A stretch of 64,000 nucleotides of DNA from Candidatus Poribacteria bacterium (GTDB lineage: Bacteria > Poribacteria > WGA-4E > WGA-3G), in assembly GCA_022821965.1 (NCBI GenBank), contig JAJECN010000002.1:62001-126000 (forward strand), given 5' to 3'. Made by a program: the position numbers and the translations under genes. The notes under the pieces were generated by a model, which was not told where the DNA came from, did no database searches, and saw nothing but the letters and a program-made list of their open reading frames with translations. Numbering within the stretch: position 1 is the first letter of the stretch; every line of letters begins with the position of its first letter. This document shows positions 29,096 through 41,126 of this stretch, one piece after another.

Positions 29096-29542
29096 GTGCA
29101 AAAACAGAAAAGATTCAAAGTGATCGCCGCGAGTGTCATTTTGCTAAGTGGTATGGCATTTTTGGTAATAGCCATGACTCGAAGCACGAGTATACGACAT
29201 TTCACGCCTGCTTCGCTTGTGGAAGATGGCAGCAAAGTGGACAATCAACGGGTCCAAGTTGATGGACTTATTGCAGAGGGTAGTTCCAAATGGGACGCTG
29301 CTAATTTTAAGCTCACCTTCGCTGTACGCGATCGCGAAACTACAGCAACAGTCAACGTGATTTATGAAAACCAGCTTAAGCCGGACAATTTCAAGGACGG
29401 TGGTAGCGTTTTCGTAGAGGGTAAATACGATGCGACACAGAACCTCGTTGTCGCTACCAAACTCATGACGAAATGCGCCTCGAAATATGATGGGGCAGAG
29501 AGCGCGACACCGACAGATAAGACCTCGTATATCTCAGAATAA
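29096..29542 (+). CDS. ccmE: cytochrome c maturation heme chaperone CcmE, Cys-type (CxxxY)
   Basis: 148 aa. Periplasmic heme chaperone anchored by one N-terminal helix (FKVIAASVILLSGMAFLVIA), then an OB-fold (VQVDGLIAEGSSKWDA, TATVNVIYENQLKPDNFKDG, SVFVEGKYDATQNLVVATKLM). The usual heme-attaching His of the HxxxY motif is replaced: KCASKY gives C127 and Y131, the CxxxY form known from some deltaproteobacteria and archaea. The start is GTG at 29096 after a G-rich leader. It heads an operon with ccmF, ccmH and a CcmI-like gene, driven by the promoter at 28990-29018. Confidence 0.9.
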   Translation: MQKQKRFKVIAASVILLSGMAFLVIAMTRSTSIRHFTPASLVEDGSKVDNQRVQVDGLIAEGSSKWDAANFKLTFAVRDRETTATVNVIYENQLKPDNFKDGGSVFVEGKYDATQNLVVATKLMTKCASKYDGAESATPTDKTSYISE

Positions 29543-29628: not shown

Positions 29629-31647
29629 ATGACTGCGGAAATCGGACAAGCCGCTATATACCTCTCTGTGCTTTCATGTTTGTGGGCAATCGGCTTTCTC
29701 AGCTTTGGACTGTGGATACGAAATGCCCGTGCCATCCAGAGCGGCAGAAACGCCGTTGTTGCTACCTTCATCCTTACCAGTATCGCGACGGGTGCGTTAA
29801 TCTACGGTTTTGTCACCGACGACTTCTCAATGCGCTATGTTGTTGAAGTATCGAGCGCGGCGCAACCCCTGTTCTACAAAATAGCGGCGCTCTGGGGTGC
29901 CATGTCTGGTTCCCTTTTACTCTGGCTCTTTGTGCTTACAGCCGCTGGTGCCATTGTCGTTTGGCAAAACTACCAACGTGTCAAACAAACCGGCGATACC
30001 TTAGCAGACTATTCCCTGATTCCAATCGCTATTGTTCAGCTTTTCTTCGTCATCCTTGTCACAGGTTTAATCGAAGGTGTCTATAATCCGCTCGCTCGGT
30101 TCCCTGGTGGTCAGGTCGCTGCCGACGGTCAAGGAATGAACCCGCTTCTCCAGACACCGCTCATGGCGATCCATCCCCCGACATTATATATCGGTTGGAT
30201 TAGCCTGACCGTACCGTTTGCGTTCGCCGTTGGCGCACTTGCATCTGGTAGAATCGGAAGCGGTTGGATACTTCGCTCGCGCAGATGGATGCTATTTTCG
30301 TGGATTATTCTGACGATCGGTATCACGCTTGGTGGTAATTGGGCATATAAAGAACTCGGCTGGGGCGGTTATTGGGCATGGGACCCCGTTGAAAATGCCT
30401 CTTTTATGCCGTGGCTCCTCGGCACCGCTTATCTACACTCCGTAATGATCCAAGAGAAGCGGAACATGCTCAAACTTTGGAATATCCTCCTTATTACCCT
30501 TGCCTTCCAATTTACACTCTTAGGGACTTTTATTACGCGTAGTGGAATCATCACATCGGTCCATGCTTTCGCACAATCGGATATTGGTGGGTATTTCCTC
30601 GGTTTCATTTTAACCTCAACTGCCGGTGTCATCGCACTCATCATCTACCGTTGGAACCGGCTCAAGAGCGCGAATCGTTTAGAAGCCCTTCTCTCCCGTG
30701 AAAGTGCCTTTGTTTTGAACAACTGGCTCCTCGTCGGGTTAACCTTAATTATCCTCTGGGGTACGTTATGGCCGATCATCTCCGAGGCAATTAACGGCGA
30801 AAAGTCCTCTGTTCCTGAAGCCTTTTTCAATCAAGTCGTCATCATTCCGGGGATACTGCTGCTGTTCTTAACGGGTGCAGGTCCAATCATCTCATGGAAG
30901 AAAATTACGCCTAACAACTTCCAACGTATGTTTTTGTTGCCGCTTGTTATCGGTTTAGTTGGCGGTGCTTTGGTATGGGGATTCCTTGCATTAATAGGAT
31001 ATACTTTTCCGTTATACTCGGTGCTCTGTAGTTTTGCTGCTGTTTTCGTGCTTGCTGCGATCTTTGCTGAATTCTATCGCGGTGCAAAACTCCGCGCGAA
31101 GCGACAGGAAACCTCTCTCCTCAACGGCTTGAACCTCCTTATCCAGCGCAACAAGAGACGATACGGCGGTTACATTATCCATATCGGTATTGTTATCCTC
31201 TATATAGGCATTATGGGGTCGAAAGGCTATTTTCTGCTTGAAACCAAAAGTATGACACTCGGGGAATCCATGGAAGTAGGCAAGTATAAAATCACAATGA
31301 TAGATGCGTTTGAGAAAGAATACGGAAACTATCTTCGGAGCGGTGTTGTTTTCGATGTTGAAAAGAATGGGAAACGTATAGGGACAATGGAACCCGCACT
31401 TCATGCCTATTACAAATCGAAACCGGATGAGGAACCTACAAAGGAACCAGCGATCCAACATTTTGGTATGAATGATCTCTATCTCGCCGTTGCCAACGTT
31501 CCACACAACGTCAAGACAGGAGGTGTTGTAAACGTCCAGGGATATTACAACCCTCTCATTGGCGTTGTCTGGATTGGCGTTGCTGTGATGGTGTTGGGCG
31601 GCATTGTTGCAATAGCCGAAAAATCTGAACGCAATAGAGACGCATGA
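29629..31647 (+). CDS. ccmF: heme lyase CcmF (cytochrome c maturation)
   Basis: 672 aa polytopic membrane protein joining heme from CcmE to apocytochrome c. Many hydrophobic helices; the periplasmic WWD motif is seen as GGYWAWDPVENASFMPW, preceded by WAYKELGWGG. Conserved His residues lie in the helices (e.g. MAIHPPTLYIGW). C-terminal periplasmic domain follows the last helices. GAGGAGG precedes the ATG. Intact by length; works with the Cys-type CcmE encoded just upstream. Confidence 0.95.
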   Translation: MTAEIGQAAIYLSVLSCLWAIGFLSFGLWIRNARAIQSGRNAVVATFILTSIATGALIYGFVTDDFSMRYVVEVSSAAQPLFYKIAALWGAMSGSLLLWLFVLTAAGAIVVWQNYQRVKQTGDTLADYSLIPIAIVQLFFVILVTGLIEGVYNPLARFPGGQVAADGQGMNPLLQTPLMAIHPPTLYIGWISLTVPFAFAVGALASGRIGSGWILRSRRWMLFSWIILTIGITLGGNWAYKELGWGGYWAWDPVENASFMPWLLGTAYLHSVMIQEKRNMLKLWNILLITLAFQFTLLGTFITRSGIITSVHAFAQSDIGGYFLGFILTSTAGVIALIIYRWNRLKSANRLEALLSRESAFVLNNWLLVGLTLIILWGTLWPIISEAINGEKSSVPEAFFNQVVIIPGILLLFLTGAGPIISWKKITPNNFQRMFLLPLVIGLVGGALVWGFLALIGYTFPLYSVLCSFAAVFVLAAIFAEFYRGAKLRAKRQETSLLNGLNLLIQRNKRRYGGYIIHIGIVILYIGIMGSKGYFLLETKSMTLGESMEVGKYKITMIDAFEKEYGNYLRSGVVFDVEKNGKRIGTMEPALHAYYKSKPDEEPTKEPAIQHFGMNDLYLAVANVPHNVKTGGVVNVQGYYNPLIGVVWIGVAVMVLGGIVAIAEKSERNRDA

Positions 31648-31665: not shown

Positions 31666-32238
31666 ATGAAAACTGGAAGATTTAAGCACATTACAACGAC
31701 CAATGAATTTTTAATTCTTAATTTTGTGTCGATTGTCGTGTTTTTCATCGTATGTAGTTTTGTTGTCACAGGGTACACGCAAACTGGAGAGGCTCAGGTT
31801 ACAGAACCGAAGGGCGTGAAAGACACCAAGGTCGCGTCCAATTTAGAGGAACTGCTAACCACAGTCTACTGTTACTGCGGCTGTGTAAGAGAGACAATTG
31901 AAGTCTGTACGTGCGTCACCGCAATGAGTATTGAGAACAATTTTCGCGATCGGCTGCTTGCTGGTGAAACGGTTGAGCAGATTCGCACGGATTATCTCGA
32001 CACTTACGGACCGCAATATTATGCAGTCATGCCTGCAGAAGGTATCAATTTGCTTGCCTACATTATGCCTGCCGTCATTCTGATTGTAATTGGTGGTGTA
32101 GCCTTTGCTGCACTCCGAAAGTCAAAACAGGCGACATTAGCGACAACGGACGCGCAGGTAGCATCGGAATCACAGGCTTCTGATGAGACGGTCAAGCAGG
32201 TTGAGGTTGAACTTGAAAGGTACAAACGGGAGAGTTAG
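31666..32238 (+). CDS. ccmH: cytochrome c maturation protein CcmH/CycL-type thiol oxidoreductase
   Basis: 190 aa. N-terminal signal/helix (FLILNFVSIVVFFIVCSFVV), the active region with CYCGCVRETIEVCTC (C69, C71, C73, C81, C83), then the helical CcmH domain (IEQ-type VEQIRTDYLDTYGPQYYAVMPAEG) and a transmembrane helix (LLAYIMPAVILIVIGGVAFAAL) with a C-terminal charged tail. Proteobacterial CcmH has a single LRCxxC motif; the five-cysteine form is a variant also seen outside Proteobacteria. It reduces apocytochrome CxxCH thiols before heme ligation. Follows ccmF by 19 nt. Confidence 0.85.
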   Translation: MKTGRFKHITTTNEFLILNFVSIVVFFIVCSFVVTGYTQTGEAQVTEPKGVKDTKVASNLEELLTTVYCYCGCVRETIEVCTCVTAMSIENNFRDRLLAGETVEQIRTDYLDTYGPQYYAVMPAEGINLLAYIMPAVILIVIGGVAFAALRKSKQATLATTDAQVASESQASDETVKQVEVELERYKRES

Positions 32239-32303: not shown

Positions 32304-32651
32304 ATGTCTTTTCTTCTGCTTTTATGGATGGTAATCCTTGGAATCGCGCTTCTTGTGTATCTGGGATTTCCGGTTTTCTCGAAAACAGCTCCGCAAGCTA
32401 TCGCGTCGTCAGAAGAAATCGTTGAAGAACGGCGGCGAACCCTCTTTCAGGAACGCGAAAACAGCTACGCCGCACTCGCGGACCTCGACGAAGATTACGA
32501 AACCGGAAAACTCTCAGATGCTGACTACCAAGAATTACGTGAAGAACTCTTGAAAGAGACTGCGCGCGTCATCATGCAACTCGAAAACGAATCCTTGTCA
32601 GATGTAGAAGCAGAAATTGAGAGATTTAAACAGCAACAACGTGAAACATAA
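32304..32651 (+). CDS. CcmI-like cytochrome c biogenesis protein (short form)
   Basis: 115 aa. One N-terminal membrane helix (LLLLWMVILGIALLVYLGF) and a cytoplasmic or periplasmic coiled coil (EERRRTLFQERENSYAALAD, LDEDYETGKLSDADYQELRE). This is the N-terminal half of CcmI; the TPR half that binds apocytochromes is missing. Start ATG 32304 follows GGG by 6 nt; the GTG at 32277 is less likely. Its DYETGKLSDADY segment resembles the C-terminal part of the next protein. Confidence 0.75.
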   Translation: MSFLLLLWMVILGIALLVYLGFPVFSKTAPQAIASSEEIVEERRRTLFQERENSYAALADLDEDYETGKLSDADYQELREELLKETARVIMQLENESLSDVEAEIERFKQQQRET

Positions 32652-32652
32652 T

Positions 32653-33975
32653 ATGAACACTAACACATTTTCATACAACCGTTCAAAAAGTAACATGCAG
32701 ATTCGCTATGTTCCGGCGTGGCGTATCGGTAGCTTACTAACGGTTGCCTTGACCGTTCTCTTTTGGCTTTCCACCCCTCATGCCCAGCAAACAACAGAAT
32801 CGGGCGATATTCAAGGCACAGTCATTGACAGAAAACGCGAGAAACCTATCGCCTCGCAACCTGTAACCCTGACGATACATAAGGCTGACACCGCTGAAAC
32901 ACAAGAAACGACGACAGATGAAAATGGGAACTATCGTTTCGGGAATCTGCCACTTAATCCAAGTGTTCACTACACGGTTTCAACCATCTACGAAGGCACA
33001 GACTACACCGAGAAAGATTTGGTGCTGTCAACCTGGGCTCCGAATATCAAAATCAACTTTGAAATTGGAGCGTTTACAGAAGACAAAACGCATGTCCGTG
33101 TCAAGACGCATAGTCTCTTTATTGGACCTCCACCTGAGGACCACGCTCCAGACGGTGCTGTTACAGTTATTGAAGTATTTGAGATCGAAAACCTGAGCGA
33201 TTTACCTTTTAGAACAACACACGGCACACAAAAAGTGGGGGCACTTTTCGCACTTCCAAAAGGTGTTGAAGGTTTTCGACCACATTCGTCAGTAGCACTT
33301 ACGATGGACGCTGCTACTAATCATGCCGTTTTTGCAACACCATTACCGCCTGGAGGGACGATCTTAGGCTACACGTATATTTTTCATGTGGAGAAAGACG
33401 GCCTGGATTTATCCCGTCGTTTGAATTTCACCACGTCAAAACTCTCATTTTTGGTGCCTGAAGGTGTTGGTCTTGTGCCGCGTGCCAAGTTTTTCAGTGC
33501 ACCAAGACGTGAACAAATTCACGGTGTCATTTATCTAAATTATCAGAGCAGTGCGCCAAAGCCGTTTGAGGCGGGCAAAACGATTGACTTAGCATTTAAC
33601 GTGAATATGAGCACTGCGCATGGTGCCTTACCAGAGCAGACATCTAATCTCGGGCAGCTAATACTTATTGCTGTCGCCGCAGCATTGACAGGAGGCTTTT
33701 TCGTTGCTGCACTTTTCAAACTCCGCACAGCCAGCAATACTACGAAACCTGACACTGATGATACCTCAACACCTTCAGACGCGGGGTGGCTTCGTAAACT
33801 GACTCCCGACGACCGCGAGCATGTCCGCGTCGCAAGGCTTGAATTCATTACGCATCTCGATGATAAGTACGAGCGGCAGGAAATCTCGGAGCGCGTCTAC
33901 AAACGCTTGCGCCGAGAACAAACCGAACGCCTTACCACACTCTTAGAAGAACAAAAGAGAGGAAACAATGCATAG
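32653..33975 (+). CDS. membrane protein with carboxypeptidase-regulatory-like domain, unknown function
   Basis: About 440 aa. Signal or anchor (GSLLTVALTVLFWLSTPHAQ), a CarboxypepD_reg-like domain (GDIQGTVIDRKREKPIASQP, TTDENGNYRFGNLPLN), a beta-rich central domain, one C-terminal transmembrane helix (LGQLILIAVAAALTGGFFVA) and a charged tail (EFITHLDDKYERQEISERVY, then YKRLRREQTERLTTLLEEQ). The tail is shared with the next gene. It follows the CcmI-like gene with only 1 nt between stop and ATG, so it belongs to the ccm operon; no known Ccm component fits. Confidence 0.7.
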   Translation: MNTNTFSYNRSKSNMQIRYVPAWRIGSLLTVALTVLFWLSTPHAQQTTESGDIQGTVIDRKREKPIASQPVTLTIHKADTAETQETTTDENGNYRFGNLPLNPSVHYTVSTIYEGTDYTEKDLVLSTWAPNIKINFEIGAFTEDKTHVRVKTHSLFIGPPPEDHAPDGAVTVIEVFEIENLSDLPFRTTHGTQKVGALFALPKGVEGFRPHSSVALTMDAATNHAVFATPLPPGGTILGYTYIFHVEKDGLDLSRRLNFTTSKLSFLVPEGVGLVPRAKFFSAPRREQIHGVIYLNYQSSAPKPFEAGKTIDLAFNVNMSTAHGALPEQTSNLGQLILIAVAAALTGGFFVAALFKLRTASNTTKPDTDDTSTPSDAGWLRKLTPDDREHVRVARLEFITHLDDKYERQEISERVYKRLRREQTERLTTLLEEQKRGNNA

Positions 33976-34363
33976 CAAACACCACATCACTGATTTGATA
34001 GTCATGTTGGGTCATATAGACGAAAATGTTCGGAATACCGCAAAGGCAGAATTAATTGCCATAGGTAGACCGGCTATTCCACAGCTCATTGATGTCCTTA
34101 CTCAGGAATGCTGGCATATCTCTGGATATGGTGCCGAGTTCTATACCCATATCGAAGAGTCCGCACTTCCTGTTTACATGGAACAGATGGCGAACCACGC
34201 TGCGGAGGTCTTAGCGGAAATCGGAGAGTCCACCGTTCCCACCCTGACGGCAGAGCTCACCAGAGCCGAGCGTGAGTTTTCGGAATGGTTTTACAAGTAT
34301 TTACGACCCGAACAAACCGACCGTCTTATCACAATGTTGGCGTATGTTAAGAAAGGCGAATAG
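33968..34363 (+). CDS. HEAT-repeat protein with tail shared with upstream gene
   Basis: 131 aa. HEAT/armadillo-type helical repeats (VRNTAKAELIAIGRPAIPQL and MANHAAEVLAEIGESTVPTL) followed by a C-terminal helix YKYLRPEQTDRLITMLAYVK that matches the tail of the upstream membrane protein. Overlaps that gene by 8 nt and has AGAGGA before the ATG. Probably a protein-protein interaction module; no enzymatic motif. Confidence 0.7.
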   Translation: MHSKHHITDLIVMLGHIDENVRNTAKAELIAIGRPAIPQLIDVLTQECWHISGYGAEFYTHIEESALPVYMEQMANHAAEVLAEIGESTVPTLTAELTRAEREFSEWFYKYLRPEQTDRLITMLAYVKKGE

Positions 34364-34368
34364 AAGAG

Positions 34369-34983
34369 ATGGACAATGAACACATCGTAGCCGATTTAAT
34401 CGAAGATTTGTCGGAACTGGATGACGATGTCCGTGCGGCTGCGAAAAAGGAGTTGGTTGCTATCGGCGAACCGGCGATTCCACAACTGATTGAGGCACTC
34501 GCCGATAATCTTGGGGATGTGGTTGATCAAGTTACCGATGTCTTGGCAGCCATCGGTGAACCGGCAATACCTGCGCTTATTGATCAGATGGCGATAGCTG
34601 AGAGGTACTATGCACTTGCTCTTGGTGATACGCTTAGCCGTATCGGTGAACCAGCAATACCGGTTTTGGTGGAAGCATTATCTGACAAACTCAATGAAGA
34701 TTTTCGTGAATATGCAGCTCGCGCACTCAATCTGATGGGAGGCGCGGCAATTCGTGCGATACCGGCACTTATTCAGGCTTTGACCGATCCCACCGATGAG
34801 GTTCGGTCTTATTCTGCCTATACACTTGCCAAAATGGAAGACGCAGCAGCAGATGCAGTGCCTGCACTTATCAAGGCACTTGATGATGAATCCGAAGAAG
34901 TCCAAAATTATGCGGCTTTTGCATTGGAAAAAATTGGAACACCGGAAGCGAAACAGGCACTTGAAGCGTTCAGCCAAGCGTAA
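34369..34983 (+). CDS. HEAT-repeat protein
   Basis: 204 aa of near-perfect HEAT/PBS-lyase-type repeats, about 35 residues each: VAIGEPAIPQLIEALADN, AAIGEPAIPALIDQMA, SRIGEPAIPVLVEALSDK, RAIPALIQALTDPTDEVRSY, DAVPALIKALDDESEEVQNY. Acidic and soluble. Starts 5 nt after the previous HEAT gene stop and ends the ccm-linked operon. Role unknown; scaffold-like. The tandem repeats look recently expanded since the nucleotide sequence of repeats is also similar. Confidence 0.8.
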   Translation: MDNEHIVADLIEDLSELDDDVRAAAKKELVAIGEPAIPQLIEALADNLGDVVDQVTDVLAAIGEPAIPALIDQMAIAERYYALALGDTLSRIGEPAIPVLVEALSDKLNEDFREYAARALNLMGGAAIRAIPALIQALTDPTDEVRSYSAYTLAKMEDAAADAVPALIKALDDESEEVQNYAAFALEKIGTPEAKQALEAFSQA

Positions 34984-35190
34984 TGGAGAAATTCTTTTGA
35001 TTTCCCTTTAGGCTTTTCCCCAACTCTTATTTCCTTGCTTCAATAGTATCAAAGACGCGATGTCCTGGAGTATCATTGGGAACCCGGAAAAATGCCGAGG
35101 CAAGTTATTGTGGGACAGTGGTAGATGACCCCCCGTAACCTAAATAGACACACTATGATAGGCGGTGTAGGTTTATCAAACCTTCAGTTC
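34984..35190. other. intergenic stretch left of tnpB element
   Basis: No gene recognised. Contains a small AGGTTT/AAACCT hairpin (35169-35183) near the element's left end. No strong terminator for the HEAT operon was seen. Confidence 0.4.
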
Positions 35191-35264
35191 TAAAACCCCC
35201 TGCCTTTAGGCGGGGGATACAGAACCGCCCTATTGAGTTAGACCAAAGTGTTTCTTAAAAACAT

Positions 35265-35293
35265 TTGATTTTCGTGTGAAATTGTGGTATAAT
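35265..35293 (+). promoter_or_regulatory. near-consensus promoter for tnpB
   Basis: TTGATT (35265-35270), 17-nt spacer, TATAAT (35288-35293) preceded by TGG. Predicted start of transcription is near 35300, exactly at the outer arm of the leader hairpin. Confidence 0.7.
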
Positions 35294-35297
35294 ATTC

Positions 35298-35372
35298 TTA
35301 CATCATGGCGGTGGATTCTACCTCCCGCTTGGGAGTGCCACCGCACCTTTTAGAAGCGGCATCATGATGTAA
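35298..35372 (+). promoter_or_regulatory. nested stem-loop in tnpB 5' leader
   Basis: Three nested inverted repeats: TTACATCATG (35298-35307) with CATGATGTAA (35363-35372), GCGGTGG (35308-35314) with CCACCGC (35338-35344), and CTCCC (35322-35326) with GGGAG (35331-35335). The outer arm runs into the AAAGG Shine-Dalgarno at 35371-35375, so folding would affect ribosome access to tnpB. Confidence 0.65.
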
Positions 35373-35380
35373 AGGAAAAC

Positions 35381-36538
35381 ATGATGTATACCACAACCTA
35401 TAAACTTTTCCGTGCGCCACGCAATCGGAATCTGAAACGAAAGACGTGGATCGCACACACAATATGGAACTACTTTCTCGGTTGGCAACGCACACGATAT
35501 TCTCTTGGGCTGCCGTATTTATCCTACAAAGAGATGTCGCGAGCGTTCACGATTCTGCGTAAGGCACATCCAGAGATGTTCGCACATTGGCGTGAGTTAG
35601 ATTCGTGGGCAGCACGCCAAGTCTTACAACGTCTTGATGAAGGTTACCAGCGGTTCTTTAAGAAAATCGCGAAACGCCCTCCAAAATTCAGATCGTTTCG
35701 TAAACCTTACTCGTTCACAATGTGTCCCTCTGGATACAAGTTTGATACGCCTATCGCGGGGGATAAAGGATTTGGAATCTATAGCGATCGCGTGACGATC
35801 ATGGGGAAAACTTACCGATTTAATCTCAGTCGCCCTATATTTGGCACTATCAAAACTGTTACTATCAAAGAAGATGCCCTTGGCGATTTTTACATGTCTG
35901 TTGTTACGGATCATATTCAGTCCCATCTCAAGCCAATGACGGGTAATGCTGCTGGGTTTGATATGGGCATCAAAACAATGCTGACATGCTCTAACGGTAA
36001 ACAATATCAATCGCCTCATTTTCAGACCGGGGCTATGGATAAAGCCAGAGCCGCGAATCGCCAATTGTCGACAAAACAGCGTGGAAGTAATAACCGAGCA
36101 CGTGCGCGTCAACACCATGCGCGTATGCACCGCAAGATTACAAGGCAACGCGAAGATCACCATTGGAAACTCGCCCTTGAACTTGTGCGTCGGTTTGATG
36201 TTCTGTTCTTTGAAACGTTGAACCTTGATGGTATGAAACGCCTTTGGGGTCGAAAAGTGTCCGACATCGGGTTCTACGCATTCTTAGAGAAACTCAAGTG
36301 GCAAGCAAAGAAACGTGGTAAGCGTGTTGCATTCATTGATCAATGGCAACCGACAACTTCGGTTTGCCATGTGTGCAACACACGCATTTCGCTTGAGTTG
36401 AGGGATAGAACATGGACGTGTGGACATTGTAATACTCATCATGACCGCGATATTAATGCGGCTATTAACATCGTTTTGGTTGGGGCATCAACCTTTGGAG
36501 TAAAGAACGTTAGACTTGCGATAGCAGGCAGTTCTTGA
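35381..36538 (+). CDS. tnpB: RNA-guided endonuclease TnpB
   Basis: 385 aa, close to ISDra2 TnpB in size. RuvC-like catalytic residues appear intact: D194 (GFDMGIKTML), E278 (FFETLNLDGM) and the Asp of HHDRDINAAINI (355-357). Zinc-finger cysteines C329/C332 and C347/C350 (CHVC, CGHC). TnpB uses an RNA from its own 3' end and the right end to cut the empty donor or target site, keeping the element. The guide RNA would end at the right-end hairpin near 36571 and take its guide from the flank beyond. AAAGG precedes the ATG by 5 nt. Confidence 0.92.
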   Translation: MMYTTTYKLFRAPRNRNLKRKTWIAHTIWNYFLGWQRTRYSLGLPYLSYKEMSRAFTILRKAHPEMFAHWRELDSWAARQVLQRLDEGYQRFFKKIAKRPPKFRSFRKPYSFTMCPSGYKFDTPIAGDKGFGIYSDRVTIMGKTYRFNLSRPIFGTIKTVTIKEDALGDFYMSVVTDHIQSHLKPMTGNAAGFDMGIKTMLTCSNGKQYQSPHFQTGAMDKARAANRQLSTKQRGSNNRARARQHHARMHRKITRQREDHHWKLALELVRRFDVLFFETLNLDGMKRLWGRKVSDIGFYAFLEKLKWQAKKRGKRVAFIDQWQPTTSVCHVCNTRISLELRDRTWTCGHCNTHHDRDINAAINIVLVGASTFGVKNVRLAIAGSS

Positions 36539-36580
36539 TGATACCAGAATCTCCCAGGCTTTAGCAGGGAGAGTATGTCA
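36400..36580 (+). ncRNA. predicted omega RNA (reRNA) region of tnpB element
   Basis: Inferred from TnpB biology: the omega RNA scaffold overlaps the last part of tnpB and the right-end palindrome (36551-36571). The boundaries are approximate and the guide would begin just after the element end. Confidence 0.4.
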
Positions 36581-36622
36581 AAAAAATTTGCTACGTAATG
36601 CGTTCGCTAAGACTTAAAAAAC

Positions 36623-36827: not shown

Positions 36828-38618
36828 ATGGCAAAATACGACTTTGTAATCGCTGTAGGAGGGGCACCCGGGCAGGGTATAGAAACTGCTGGCAAGAGCA
36901 TCAGCCAAATTTGTGCCCGGTATGGGCTGAACGTTTTTACTTACACCGCCTATCAATCCCTCATCCGCGGTGGTCACTCCTTCCTGACTATTCGAATCAG
37001 TTCTGAGCCTGTTGCGAACCACGGGGATAAGATTGACTTGATTATTGCTCTGGATGCCAATAGCGTAGAGAAGCATCTACCCCATGTCTCACCCGGCGGC
37101 GCACTCATCTATAACAGCGATGATGTCAAACAAGAACCGGAACGTGATGACATCCAGTTGTGTCCTATCTCTTATAAAGAATTGACTAATGATCCGGACA
37201 GAAAAAAGATCATGCTGAATGTTTGTGCATCCAGTGTGGCTTTGCAATTGGTGGGGATAGATTTGGGAGTGCTTGAGGACATCATCGTTCTGTCCCTGCT
37301 CAAACGCAAGGGGCAAGCCATAGTGGATGCGAACATCGCTGCTGCTCGGGCAAGTTACGATTACGCCGCTGAACACTTTACACCGTTTGATGTCCAATTT
37401 GAGAAACAGGATCCGCCATTGGCGTTCGGTAGTGGTAATATGTTGATGGCAATGGGTGGTGCATCCGCAGGTGTTAAATTTTATGCTGCCTATCCGATGA
37501 GTCCATCAACAGGTATTCTCCACTGGATGGCACCGAACGCTCGCGATCTCGGTATTATCGTCCGGCAATGTGAAGATGAGATCAGCGTTATCAACATGGT
37601 AATCGGTGCGGCACATACTGGGGCACGTGCAATGTGTGCGACATCGGGTGGCGGTTTCGCACTTATGTCGGAAGCGATTGGCAGTGCGGGCATGATGGAA
37701 ATTCCAATTGTTGTGGTTAATGTTCAACGCGGCGGTCCCTCTACAGGTTTACCTACCAAAACCGAGCAGGGAGATTTATGGCAAGTTCTTGGCGCAAGCC
37801 AAGGTGATTTTCCGAAAATTATTGTTTCACCTACCAGTATTATGGACGGGTTTAATACAATCCCTGAACTCTTTAACCTCGTTGACAAGTTTCAGTGCCC
37901 CGGCATGGTACTCACGGATTTGTCGCTGGCGGAAGGGCACACGACATTCGTGCCGGATTCTATCGACTGGCAGCCAGAAATTGACCGTGGGGAATTAATC
38001 GCTGAACAAGGGCAGGCAGATGGTGAATATCTGCGTTACCAAATCACAGACAGCGGGATTTCGCCCCGTGCTATCCCTGGCACGCCTGGGCACATGCACG
38101 TTGTTGCTACCGATGATCATGATGAAGATGGCGGTCTGATTAGTGATGAATTCACGAATCCTCACAAACGTCGTGATATTATGGAGAAACGGCAACGCAA
38201 GATGGAAGGCATCGTTGAACTTCTCCCGCCTCCGACCCTCGAAGGACCGGAAGATGCTGAAGTTACCCTGATTGGGTGGGGATCCACGCATGGGGTCATC
38301 GGTGAAGCAGCACAATTGTTAACCGAAGCAGGCATTGCCACCAACCATATCCACTTCAAGTGGCTCTATCCGATGGACGAAGATGCTGTCAACGCAGTGC
38401 TTTCAAAATCCGCACACGCCATTATAGTTGAGTGTAACTACACTGGTCAGTTCGCTCGGTTCCTGCGCGGTGAAACCGGCTTTAAGGCAGACGGTCAGAT
38501 CCGCAAATACGACGGTGAACCCTTTATGCCACACCACGTCGTTGACGGAGCCCGTGAACTCTTAACGGGTACAGATAAGACAGACCTCTACGTCCCCTAC
38601 CAAGAAATTGTTGTTTAA
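36828..38618 (+). CDS. korA: 2-oxoacid:ferredoxin oxidoreductase, fused gamma-alpha subunit
   Basis: 596 aa. Residues 1-190 are the gamma domain (GGAPGQGIETAGKSISQICA, YQSLIRGGHSFLTIRIS), followed by the alpha/pyrimidine-binding domain (MGGASAGVKFYAAYPMSPST, VVNVQRGGPSTGLPTKTEQG) and a C-terminal transketolase-C-like domain (VTLIGWGSTHGVIGEAAQLL). Converts 2-oxoglutarate (or another 2-oxoacid) and CoA to acyl-CoA with reduced ferredoxin, in complex with the beta subunit. The TPSGLPTKTEQ motif is typical of the KorA class. GGGAG precedes the ATG; korB follows by 18 nt. Confidence 0.92.
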   Translation: MAKYDFVIAVGGAPGQGIETAGKSISQICARYGLNVFTYTAYQSLIRGGHSFLTIRISSEPVANHGDKIDLIIALDANSVEKHLPHVSPGGALIYNSDDVKQEPERDDIQLCPISYKELTNDPDRKKIMLNVCASSVALQLVGIDLGVLEDIIVLSLLKRKGQAIVDANIAAARASYDYAAEHFTPFDVQFEKQDPPLAFGSGNMLMAMGGASAGVKFYAAYPMSPSTGILHWMAPNARDLGIIVRQCEDEISVINMVIGAAHTGARAMCATSGGGFALMSEAIGSAGMMEIPIVVVNVQRGGPSTGLPTKTEQGDLWQVLGASQGDFPKIIVSPTSIMDGFNTIPELFNLVDKFQCPGMVLTDLSLAEGHTTFVPDSIDWQPEIDRGELIAEQGQADGEYLRYQITDSGISPRAIPGTPGHMHVVATDDHDEDGGLISDEFTNPHKRRDIMEKRQRKMEGIVELLPPPTLEGPEDAEVTLIGWGSTHGVIGEAAQLLTEAGIATNHIHFKWLYPMDEDAVNAVLSKSAHAIIVECNYTGQFARFLRGETGFKADGQIRKYDGEPFMPHHVVDGARELLTGTDKTDLYVPYQEIVV

Positions 38619-38636
38619 TAAAGGAGGAAGAATCAG

Positions 38637-39533
38637 ATGGCGAAACGAGAAAGACCTATTAAAGGTGCTCCTACAGCGCGAGATTTTAAAGGTGATGTTA
38701 ATCCCGATTGGTGTCCCGGTTGTGGTGATTTTAGTGTCCTTAGTGCGCTCCAAAATGCTTATGCCAAACTCGGTCGTGGCAATCATGATCACCTGACTGT
38801 AAGTGGAATCGGGTGTTCCTCTAACCTCCCTGGCTATGTAAGAACTTATGGAATGCACACCCTGCATGGTCGTGCGCTTGCCGTGGCGACCGGTGCTAAA
38901 TTTGCGAATCACGAGTTAAATGTTGTCGTCACCGGTGGTGATGGTGATGGGTACGGCATCGGCGGAAATCACTTCATTCATACGATGCGAAAAAATATTG
39001 ATCTCCTCTACATTGTCATGAATAACGAGACGTATGGCTTGACTGTCGGACAAGCCTCACCGACCACTGTGGTAGGTGAACAGACGAAGAGCACGCCGTT
39101 CGGTAATTTGGAGTCACCTCTGAATCCGGTCGCAATGGCGATTGTCTCTGGCGCGACTTATGTTGCAAGAGCGTTTAGTTCGGAACGCGCGCAACTCTCG
39201 GAATTGATGTATAACGGGATGCAACACAAAGGATTTGCGTTCATTGATGTTATCAGTCCTTGTGTGACTTGGAAGAAGGAGAAAATGAAGATTTTCGATT
39301 ATTGGAAAGAGCGAGTTCACCTTCTTGAAGATCATGACACAAGTGACAGAGCTGCTGCACTTGCGCAAGCGGTCAAGACCGGACATGAAACGCAGCTTGG
39401 ATTGTTCTACCATGATACAAGCCGCCAGTCATTGGATCAAATGGAACCCGTGTTAGAAAATGGACCTATAGCACATCAACCGCTTGGTATCAGCAAAGAA
39501 CAGGGCGACGCAATCATCCAAAGAATGATGTAA
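38637..39533 (+). CDS. korB: 2-oxoacid:ferredoxin oxidoreductase beta subunit
   Basis: 298 aa. Thiamine-diphosphate-binding subunit with WCPGCGDFSVLSALQNA (one Fe-S cysteine region), SGIGCSSNLPGY, TGGDGDGYGIGGNH (Mg-ThDP motif GDGD) and IVMNNETYGLTVGQASPTT. Length matches two-subunit KorAB enzymes with no separate ferredoxin subunit. AAAGGAGG precedes the ATG. Ends at the terminator 39598-39631. Confidence 0.93.
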   Translation: MAKRERPIKGAPTARDFKGDVNPDWCPGCGDFSVLSALQNAYAKLGRGNHDHLTVSGIGCSSNLPGYVRTYGMHTLHGRALAVATGAKFANHELNVVVTGGDGDGYGIGGNHFIHTMRKNIDLLYIVMNNETYGLTVGQASPTTVVGEQTKSTPFGNLESPLNPVAMAIVSGATYVARAFSSERAQLSELMYNGMQHKGFAFIDVISPCVTWKKEKMKIFDYWKERVHLLEDHDTSDRAAALAQAVKTGHETQLGLFYHDTSRQSLDQMEPVLENGPIAHQPLGISKEQGDAIIQRMM

Positions 39534-39631: not shown

Positions 39632-39658
39632 ATTGCCTACTGCGGGATTGTTCACATC

Positions 39659-40360
39659 ATGCGTCTTCGTGCTTCCCAACTCACCAAGAACTTCGGACAC
39701 CGCGCAATTGTCAAAAACGCCACGCTTTCGGTTAATCCCGGCGAAGTGGTTACGATTTTCGGTCCTAATGGTGCTGGTAAAACGACACTCATCAAAATTC
39801 TCGCGACGCTCCTGAAGCCGACATCCGGGGAACTTGAGATTGAAGGCACGGATGCGATCGCCAATTACTCGGACGTGCGCAACGGATTAGGGGTCGTTAT
39901 TCATGAAAATCTCGCTTACCCGGTGTTCAGTCCTTACGAGAATCTCAAGTTCTTTGGACGGATGTACGGCGTTCAGCAGTTAGAACACCGCTGTATAACG
40001 CTCCTCACCGAAGTCGGCTTGCAGCATTTCGCCCATGAACCTCTTCACATCTTCTCACGCGGCATGACACAGCGTTTTATGATTGCCAGAGCACTCCTCC
40101 ACCAACCTTCAGTTTTATTACTCGACGAACCTTTCTCTGGATTGGATGCCGCTGCCAAGCAGTTTGTTTTAAAGCGCATCGCGCAAGAACAACAAAACGG
40201 CAAAGGTATTATCATCACAACGCATAATACAGAGTTGGGCTATCTCGCAGGCACGAGGTTTCTCTTTATGATAAATGGAGAACTGGAAGAGGTCGCGCAG
40301 AAAGATGAAATTACAGCAGAGACGTTGCTGCTTATGTATGAGGAGAGGTTGACGTTTTAA
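39659..40360 (+). CDS. ccmA: heme exporter ABC ATPase CcmA-like
   Basis: 233 aa from ATG 39659; the longer frame would start upstream of the terminator. Walker A GPNGAGKTT, signature FSRGMTQR, Walker B VLLLDEPFSGLD and a C-terminal tail match an ABC ATPase. Name is by context: it is followed by a CcmB-like permease. In System I, CcmAB releases heme-loaded CcmE from CcmC. No ccmC is visible in the window. Confidence 0.8.
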   Translation: MRLRASQLTKNFGHRAIVKNATLSVNPGEVVTIFGPNGAGKTTLIKILATLLKPTSGELEIEGTDAIANYSDVRNGLGVVIHENLAYPVFSPYENLKFFGRMYGVQQLEHRCITLLTEVGLQHFAHEPLHIFSRGMTQRFMIARALLHQPSVLLLDEPFSGLDAAAKQFVLKRIAQEQQNGKGIIITTHNTELGYLAGTRFLFMINGELEEVAQKDEITAETLLLMYEERLTF

Positions 40361-40433: not shown

Positions 40434-41126
40434 ATGAAGGCACTCCGTCAAATTGGCGCGTTGATTCGCAAAGACCTTGGGCTTCAATTCCGTTCAAACG
40501 AGACGTTCGTATTAGTCTTCGTCTTCAGCATATTAGTTGTTCTCATTTTTGCTTTTGCGTTTGGCCCGATTTTTCCTGAAAGGGGAGAACGTGGCAAACT
40601 AACTGCCAGTGTGCTCTGGGCGGCATTCGTTTTTGCAGGGATTATCACCTTGAACCGTTCATTCACAGCAGAACGCTCACACGGTGCGTTGCAAGGCATA
40701 CGACTGACCGGCGTTGATGCGAGTAATCTTTACCTCTCTAAAGTCATTAGCAATGTCATTTTTCTATTTCTATTGGAAATCATCATTACGCCTATCGCAC
40801 TTCAATTTTTGGATCTGCTTGATGTGGTGACGGTGGGTATATTATTGAAATTATCCGGTGTGTTTGGTATCGGGACACTCGGTTTCTGTGCTGTCGGTGT
40901 GTTGTTAGCCGGTATGTCCACAGGTGCGAATGGCGGCGAGAGTCTCCTTTCCGTTATTTTACTTCCTCTCGTCATCCCAATTATTATGGGCGGTGCGAAA
41001 TGCACCGTCTCGCTTTTGGTAACCGGCGGATTAGATAACGGATTTTGGCTGGCACTGCTCATCGGATGTAGTTTAATTTTTTTGGCAGCTGCGTATCTAC
41101 TCGCGGATGCTGTCATTGAGGAATAG
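40434..41126 (+). CDS. ccmB: heme exporter protein CcmB
   Basis: 230 aa, six hydrophobic helices. KDLGLQFRSNETFVLVFVFS, ILWAAFVFAG-like VLWAAFVFAGIITLNRSF and AERSHGALQGIRLTGVDAS are typical of CcmB. ATG at 40434 is chosen over a TTG at 40395, with only weak Shine-Dalgarno support. It pairs with the upstream ATPase. It lies 8 kb from ccmEFH in this window. Confidence 0.9.
   Translation: MKALRQIGALIRKDLGLQFRSNETFVLVFVFSILVVLIFAFAFGPIFPERGERGKLTASVLWAAFVFAGIITLNRSFTAERSHGALQGIRLTGVDASNLYLSKVISNVIFLFLLEIIITPIALQFLDLLDVVTVGILLKLSGVFGIGTLGFCAVGVLLAGMSTGANGGESLLSVILLPLVIPIIMGGAKCTVSLLVTGGLDNGFWLALLIGCSLIFLAAAYLLADAVIEE

Follow-up and report, generated by a model that had tools for sequence, protein, structure and literature searches.

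ORF5, a conserved ccm-linked membrane protein with a CcmI-like hairpin in Poribacteria and Acidobacteriota, and a neighbouring HEAT protein that shares its C-terminal helix

Most knowledge of cytochrome c maturation by System I comes from Proteobacteria and mitochondria. Among its described components, the one closest to the proteins discussed here is CcmI, which in Rhodobacter and Pseudomonas has two membrane helices, a short cytoplasmic region and a large TPR domain on the periplasmic side that acts as a chaperone for apocytochrome (PMC3884852). In these bacteria CcmI forms a complex with CcmF and CcmH, and in Rhodobacter its membrane/cytoplasmic-loop and TPR domains are separate (PMC3884852). 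A further likeness is to SHOCT (PF09851), a short C-terminal two-helix hairpin of unknown function, for which oligomerisation has been tested and was not supported (PMC3581485).

The window analysed here, a 64,000-nucleotide stretch of a contig of a Candidatus Poribacteria bacterium, carries on its forward strand the genes ccmE, ccmF, ccmH, a short ccmI-like gene, ORF5, HEAT131 and HEAT204, followed by a TnpB element, korAB, ccmA and ccmB. Its features are:

29096..29542, + strand: ccmE, heme chaperone (PF03100, E=1.4e-19; synteny kept in almost every poribacterial ccm locus examined)
29629..31647, + strand: ccmF, heme lyase (PF16327, 3.5e-54; PF01578, 9e-33; TIGR00353, 2e-118)
31666..32238, + strand: ccmH, thioreductase subunit (PF03918, 1.5e-10)
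32304..32651, + strand: short CcmI-like protein of 115 aa, with one membrane helix and the cytoplasmic hairpin LDEDYETGKLSDADYQELR (TIGR03142)
32653 (ATG)..33975 (stop), + strand: ORF5, ccm-linked membrane protein (family-wide presence, ccm position)
32707..32766, + strand: ORF5 N-terminal hydrophobic helix, residues 19-38, signal peptide or anchor (AF2 model; sequence poorly conserved)
32800..33021, + strand: ORF5 carboxypeptidase-regulatory-like β-sandwich, residues 50-123, predicted to be periplasmic (PF13620, 1.8e-8; pLDDT ~90)
33094..33603, + strand: ORF5 second β domain, residues 148-317 (AF2 pLDDT ~90)
33649..33729, + strand: ORF5 transmembrane helix, residues 333-359 (AF2 helix)
33805..33969, + strand: ORF5 helical hairpin, residues ~385-439, CcmI/SHOCT-like, predicted to be cytoplasmic (two helices, pLDDT ~86)
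33877..33960, + strand: shared tail, ORF5 copy, residues 409-436 (BLASTP, profile-profile comparison, shuffles, genome-wide profile)
33968..34363, + strand: HEAT131, HEAT protein with an ORF5-type C-terminal helix, putative chimeric gene (HEAT204 paralogy, tree)
34271..34354, + strand: shared tail, HEAT131 copy, residues 102-129 (scores against its own ORF5 and HEAT204; identity within the genus)
34369..34983, + strand: HEAT204, HEAT-repeat protein, following ORF5 or HEAT131 (PF13646, 2e-25)
36828..39533: korA/korB-like oxidoreductase genes, between HEAT204 and ccmA
39647..40360, + strand: ccmA, downstream of the korAB insertion (ABC ATPase sequence)
40437..41126, + strand: ccmB (synteny)

As a sequence-only reading of this DNA had noted, the genes overlap or nearly touch: the ccmI-like gene and ORF5 are 1 nt apart, ORF5 and HEAT131 overlap by 8 nt, and HEAT131 and HEAT204 are separated by 5 nt. 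The start of HEAT131 is preceded by the ribosome site AGAGGAAACA, and the tight junctions resemble those of a translationally coupled operon. Further downstream, a TnpB-type (OrfB_IS605 / Cas12f1-like TNB) element at 35184-36582, with its gene at 35381-36538, lies between HEAT204 and korA. No TnpA gene was seen at this element, and in two relatives (L062, L070) about 1.4 kb is absent at its site, the flanks being nearly contiguous. The korAB insertion itself is found between HEAT204 and ccmA in families f1 and f2 and in one f3 genome; it splits the ccm operon, and ORF5 stays with ccmI.

Architecture of the short CcmI-like protein and of ORF5

The CcmI model TIGR03142 matches 22 of 24 members of the CcmI-like family at E<=0.1 (best 2.3e-6); the protein of the window reaches 18.2 bits against a cut-off of 29.3. 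Searches of its 115 residues for a second transmembrane helix or a TPR match found neither. In contrast to CcmI of Rhodobacter and Pseudomonas, the poribacterial protein stops after the hairpin and has no periplasmic TPR part. Some ccm loci of Nitrospinota and Actinomycetota (L183, L185, L187, L189) also encode short CcmI proteins, which end in a zinc-ribbon-like CxxC...CxxC motif, and the DNA examined at these four loci contains no ORF5.

The AF2 model of ORF5 (mean pLDDT 80) shows two helices, 385-407 and 413-439, after a disordered linker. If the N-terminal helix is a signal peptide, both β domains would be periplasmic and the hairpin cytoplasmic. PF13620 matches 36 of 38 ORF5 family members at the N-terminal domain, which ORF5 thus shares with carboxypeptidase regulatory-like/transthyretin-like proteins; this domain, however, is common in other envelope proteins, none of which our literature search found described as a ccm component. 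In Foldseek searches (E 4e-7 to 1e-4), the second β domain showed a weak fold resemblance to ribophorin I/Ost1 and to M1-aminopeptidase N-domains, together with a type-I membrane layout, but the TM-scores are only 0.2-0.3 at ~10% identity and ORF5 has no catalytic domain. Sequence searches of ORF5 against the PDB gave nothing significant and no sequence link between its β domains and a known chaperone. Neither Pfam nor NCBIfam has a curated family for the whole of ORF5, and a search of open-licence papers found none describing such a protein.

The sequence-only reading had overlooked that the C-terminal hairpin of ORF5 is probably related to that of CcmI. When acidobacterial sequences were added to the alignment, hhalign matched the two hairpins over 50 columns (E=1.1e-8, probability 95.6), a score that none of 200 shuffles reached. 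Of four acidobacterial ORF5 proteins, three also give a weak TIGR03142 match (best E 0.0036), and in the member shown this match lies on the transmembrane helix and tail, below the cut-off. ORF5 is predicted to have, like CcmI, a membrane helix with a cytoplasmic hairpin, and is encoded in the same operon. They differ in that ORF5 carries this unit at its C-terminus behind β-sandwich domains instead of a periplasmic TPR domain, and in that it scores below the cut-off of the CcmI model. The resemblance to SHOCT is of the same kind, a short C-terminal two-helix hairpin, but the tail of one acidobacterial ORF5 matched at 2.3e-5 with 24.4 bits, below the Pfam cut-off of 27, and the tail of the window's own ORF5 had no SHOCT match. 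Because SHOCT-like hairpins are common and short, the similarity of ORF5 to CcmI may not mean that the two have a common partner.

Distribution of ORF5 and its linkage to ccm genes

ORF5 was found in 58 of the 59 genomes of the family, with strong matches across most of the phylum; of the 83 genomes listed with ORF5 matches, some match through the common PF13620 domain only. We read 60 poribacterial loci. Where a locus has a CcmI-like gene as well as ORF5, the latter comes second; it precedes either ccmA or genes inserted ahead of ccmA. In most of f3, f7 and f8, ccmA comes directly after ORF5; in f1, f2 and f3-g6 other genes separate the two, and ORF5 still adjoins ccmI. ORF5 and CcmF matches are both missing from three genomes (G014, G076, G064). 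An exception is G061 (family f5, L209), where ccmA and ccmB directly follow ccmF, and ccmH, ccmI and ORF5 are all missing from that place.

Outside the phylum, 22 of 119 sampled acidobacterial genomes encode an ORF5-like protein at E <= 1e-8, and 19 of the 20 fetched loci have ccm genes in their short flanks. The order ccmE-F-H-I-ORF5-...-A-B recurs in the acidobacterial loci L201, L202 and L204. Some acidobacterial ORF5-like proteins (L227, L228, L229, L230, L234) end just after the transmembrane helix, so the hairpin is not essential everywhere. No ORF5 was found in 24 Nitrospinota genomes at the strict threshold of E<=1e-12, a search that had no positive control, or on plasmids.

ORF5 is thus linked to ccmE, F, H, I, A and B, as expected of a System I operon gene, and this linkage is kept across Poribacteria and Acidobacteriota. 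The suggestion of the sequence-only reading that these genes include an undescribed accessory of cytochrome maturation, which a lack of linkage in relatives would have undermined, is well supported for ORF5 by its synteny. It holds less well for the HEAT genes, since HEAT204 is linked to ccm in some poribacterial families only and HEAT131 in a single clade. Downstream of ORF5 or HEAT131, HEAT204 comes next in each of the 41 f1 loci read, and also in f2 and a single f3 genome. HEAT131 is present in genera g1 and g3 and in one of the two g2 genomes, and is absent from g4 and from other families; at loci that lack it, ORF5 is followed by HEAT204 or ccmA. One genome without HEAT131 (G001, L081), whose genus-mate G002 has the gene, also shows additional CcmH-like matches, located upstream of the CcmI-like gene.

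The shared tail and the origin of HEAT131

ORF5 (32653-33975) and HEAT131 (33968-34363) had been read as homologous at their C-termini and unrelated in the rest. The homology of the tails is borne out: 16 of 30 residues are identical (BLASTP of the pair, E=2e-6), profile-profile comparison gives E=1.2e-5, and the score was reached by none of 5000 shuffles in the window genome, none of 5000 in G003 and none of 200 column-shuffled profiles. Compared with 441 C-termini of other reading frames, the best matches listed were ORF5 tails in each of the three genomes tested, and for the HEAT131 tails of G003 and G002, ORF5 tails of other families outscored their own ORF5. A profile built from both tail copies found just these two in the 5.7-Mb genome, in ORF5 and HEAT131, with no third; the next match was a fragment at E=0.08. 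A chance match of the tails was discarded on the shuffles, the 441 background C-termini and this genome-wide profile. The extent of the tail has to be revised, however: in ORF5 it is a full two-helix hairpin (~residues 385-439), of which HEAT131 has the second helix only.

For the remainder, ORF5 and HEAT131 are indeed unrelated, but the reading had missed that residues 1-113 of HEAT131 are paralogous to residues 1-121 of HEAT204 (E=7e-24). HEAT204 contains HEAT repeats by the Pfam cut-off (PF13646, 89.3 bits, three stretches); HEAT131 scores 17.7 bits, below the cut-off of 27.7, and is assigned through its homology to HEAT204. Both also match NF058515, a model of HEAT-repeat bilin lyases (CpcE/CpcF family), but with 18 and 43 bits they fall far below its cut-off of 220; we set bilin lyases aside as relatives, the likeness being one of general HEAT-repeat similarity. 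A Foldseek search with the HEAT131 model, which is of low confidence, gave nothing at E<0.1. The tail of HEAT131 is not a leftover HEAT repeat, as its last 32 residues have a mean score of 67.7 against their own ORF5 and of 17.5, the background level, against their own HEAT204.

In the tree, the HEAT131 genes form one group (support 100/100), whose exact placement is loose given the few columns. They have a single origin and are confined to one clade. The simplest origin would be one tandem duplication of the ORF5 tail together with the start of HEAT204, because residues 1-113 of HEAT131 match the HEAT204 N-terminus and its tail matches only ORF5. Duplication of one stretch that reaches from the ORF5 tail into HEAT204 would produce ORF5, then a HEAT N-terminus joined to an ORF5 tail, then HEAT204, which is the order seen. 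The case for this event comes from the anatomy of the genes, the breakpoints being too old for reading in the DNA.

Sequence constraint was measured for seven operon genes in the 21 genomes of genus g1. HEAT131 is the most conserved of these, with a mean amino-acid identity of 92.4%, followed by CcmF (86.7%), CcmE (78.6%), the CcmI-like protein (77.9%), HEAT204 (73.2%), ORF5 (72.4%) and CcmH (63.0%). At four-fold silent sites HEAT131 differs by 0.40 and the other genes by 0.41-0.49, so the HEAT131 protein is under selection rather than recently spread. Its most conserved part is the tail (98.5% mean identity in g1). Within ORF5, conservation of the membrane helix (92%) and of the hairpin (88%) far exceeds that of the periplasmic domains (72%). 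That the most constrained parts of both proteins include the tail fits the earlier idea of a duplicated interaction motif.

Two other explanations of the similar tails have to be weighed against descent by duplication. HEAT131 could be a shortened HEAT204 paralogue in which drift of the last helices led, by chance or convergence, to a resemblance to ORF5. The most divergent HEAT131, that of G002, has a tail that is much less ORF5-like (score 30, shuffle p=0.009), and in the low-confidence HEAT131 model an invariant proline interrupts the tail helix, both of which favour this account. The shuffles, the ORF5 tails, often those of other families, that are the best matches among 441 C-termini, and the background-level score of the matching part of HEAT204 argue against it, and we consider it improbable. 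The adjoining genes might instead have been made alike by recent or continuing gene conversion, for which their overlap and the peak of protein similarity in genus g1 could be cited. Yet at the DNA level the tails are 57.6% identical when paired within a genome and 57.0% when paired across genomes, a marginal difference (permutation p ~0.05), so continuing conversion is unsupported and this explanation, which the sequence-only reading had named as a possible undoing of its proposal, is hardly credible.

Proposed role of ORF5 and the HEAT proteins

From the sequences and the linkage of ORF5 to the ccm genes we infer the following mechanism. CcmI would be reduced to its membrane and hairpin part in Poribacteria and Acidobacteriota, and ORF5 would supply the periplasmic part, with a β-sandwich replacing the TPR chaperone and holding apocytochrome c near CcmFH. 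We propose that ORF5 replaces the periplasmic half of CcmI, since CcmI ends with its hairpin here and the gene after it encodes a large periplasmic domain attached to a similar helix-hairpin unit. The CcmI-like hairpins would keep the complex assembled or link it to CcmAB, and HEAT204 would be a cytoplasmic partner of this complex. In one clade, a duplication would have joined the second helix of the tail, as a copy, to a HEAT N-terminus, and the resulting HEAT131 would then have come under very strong constraint. HEAT131 probably has the same partner as the ORF5 tail. Its effect may be to stabilise the complex or to compete with ORF5.

That ORF5 is a second CcmI-like structural subunit of the System I heme-ligation machinery, with HEAT204 as its partner and HEAT131 as a fusion, is a reading that we favour tentatively, at slightly less than an even chance. 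Synteny, the joint absence of ORF5 and CcmF in three genomes, the likeness of the ORF5 tail to CcmI, the short CcmI and the constraint on transmembrane helix and tail speak for it; the β domains with no link to a chaperone, the hairpin-less acidobacterial proteins, G061, the proline break in HEAT131 and the G002 tail count against it. A stronger form, in which ORF5 is a required core subunit in two phyla, CcmI is split, its TPR domain is replaced, and the HEAT131 fusion regulates the complex from the cytoplasm through a copied docking helix, seems to us rather unlikely.

ORF5 could also work with CcmAB (or as a heme/iron sensor or an exporter-side scaffold), its tail touching CcmA, and not with CcmFHI. 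In Acidobacteriota and in most loci of f3, f7 and f8, ORF5 directly precedes ccmA, which agrees with this, as does the conserved tail, which is predicted to be cytoplasmic as CcmA is. ORF5, however, is equally close to ccmI and remains beside it where f1, f2 and f3-g6 separate it from ccmA, and its tail is probably kin to the CcmI hairpin, which leaves a partnership with CcmAB an unlikely alternative. Nor do we find it likely, and here our estimate is lower still, that ORF5 is merely linked to the operon, as an envelope protein that does something else and has to be co-expressed with respiratory cytochromes. Carboxypeptidase-regulatory and β-sandwich domains are frequent in envelope proteins, and the function proposed for ORF5 derives from linkage and sequence; on the other side stand a position kept across two phyla, down to ~22% identity, the joint absence of ORF5 and CcmF in three genomes, and the CcmI-like tail.

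Judged by gene order and homology, the System I operon of these bacteria contains a conserved component, ORF5, that had gone unrecognised. A membrane protein of the ccm operon that joins a CcmI-like hairpin to a different periplasmic module suggests a second solution to apocytochrome handling, and ORF5 gives a target gene in cultivable Acidobacteriota. HEAT131, for its part, is a clear small example of a gene that was probably born by tandem duplication and fusion.
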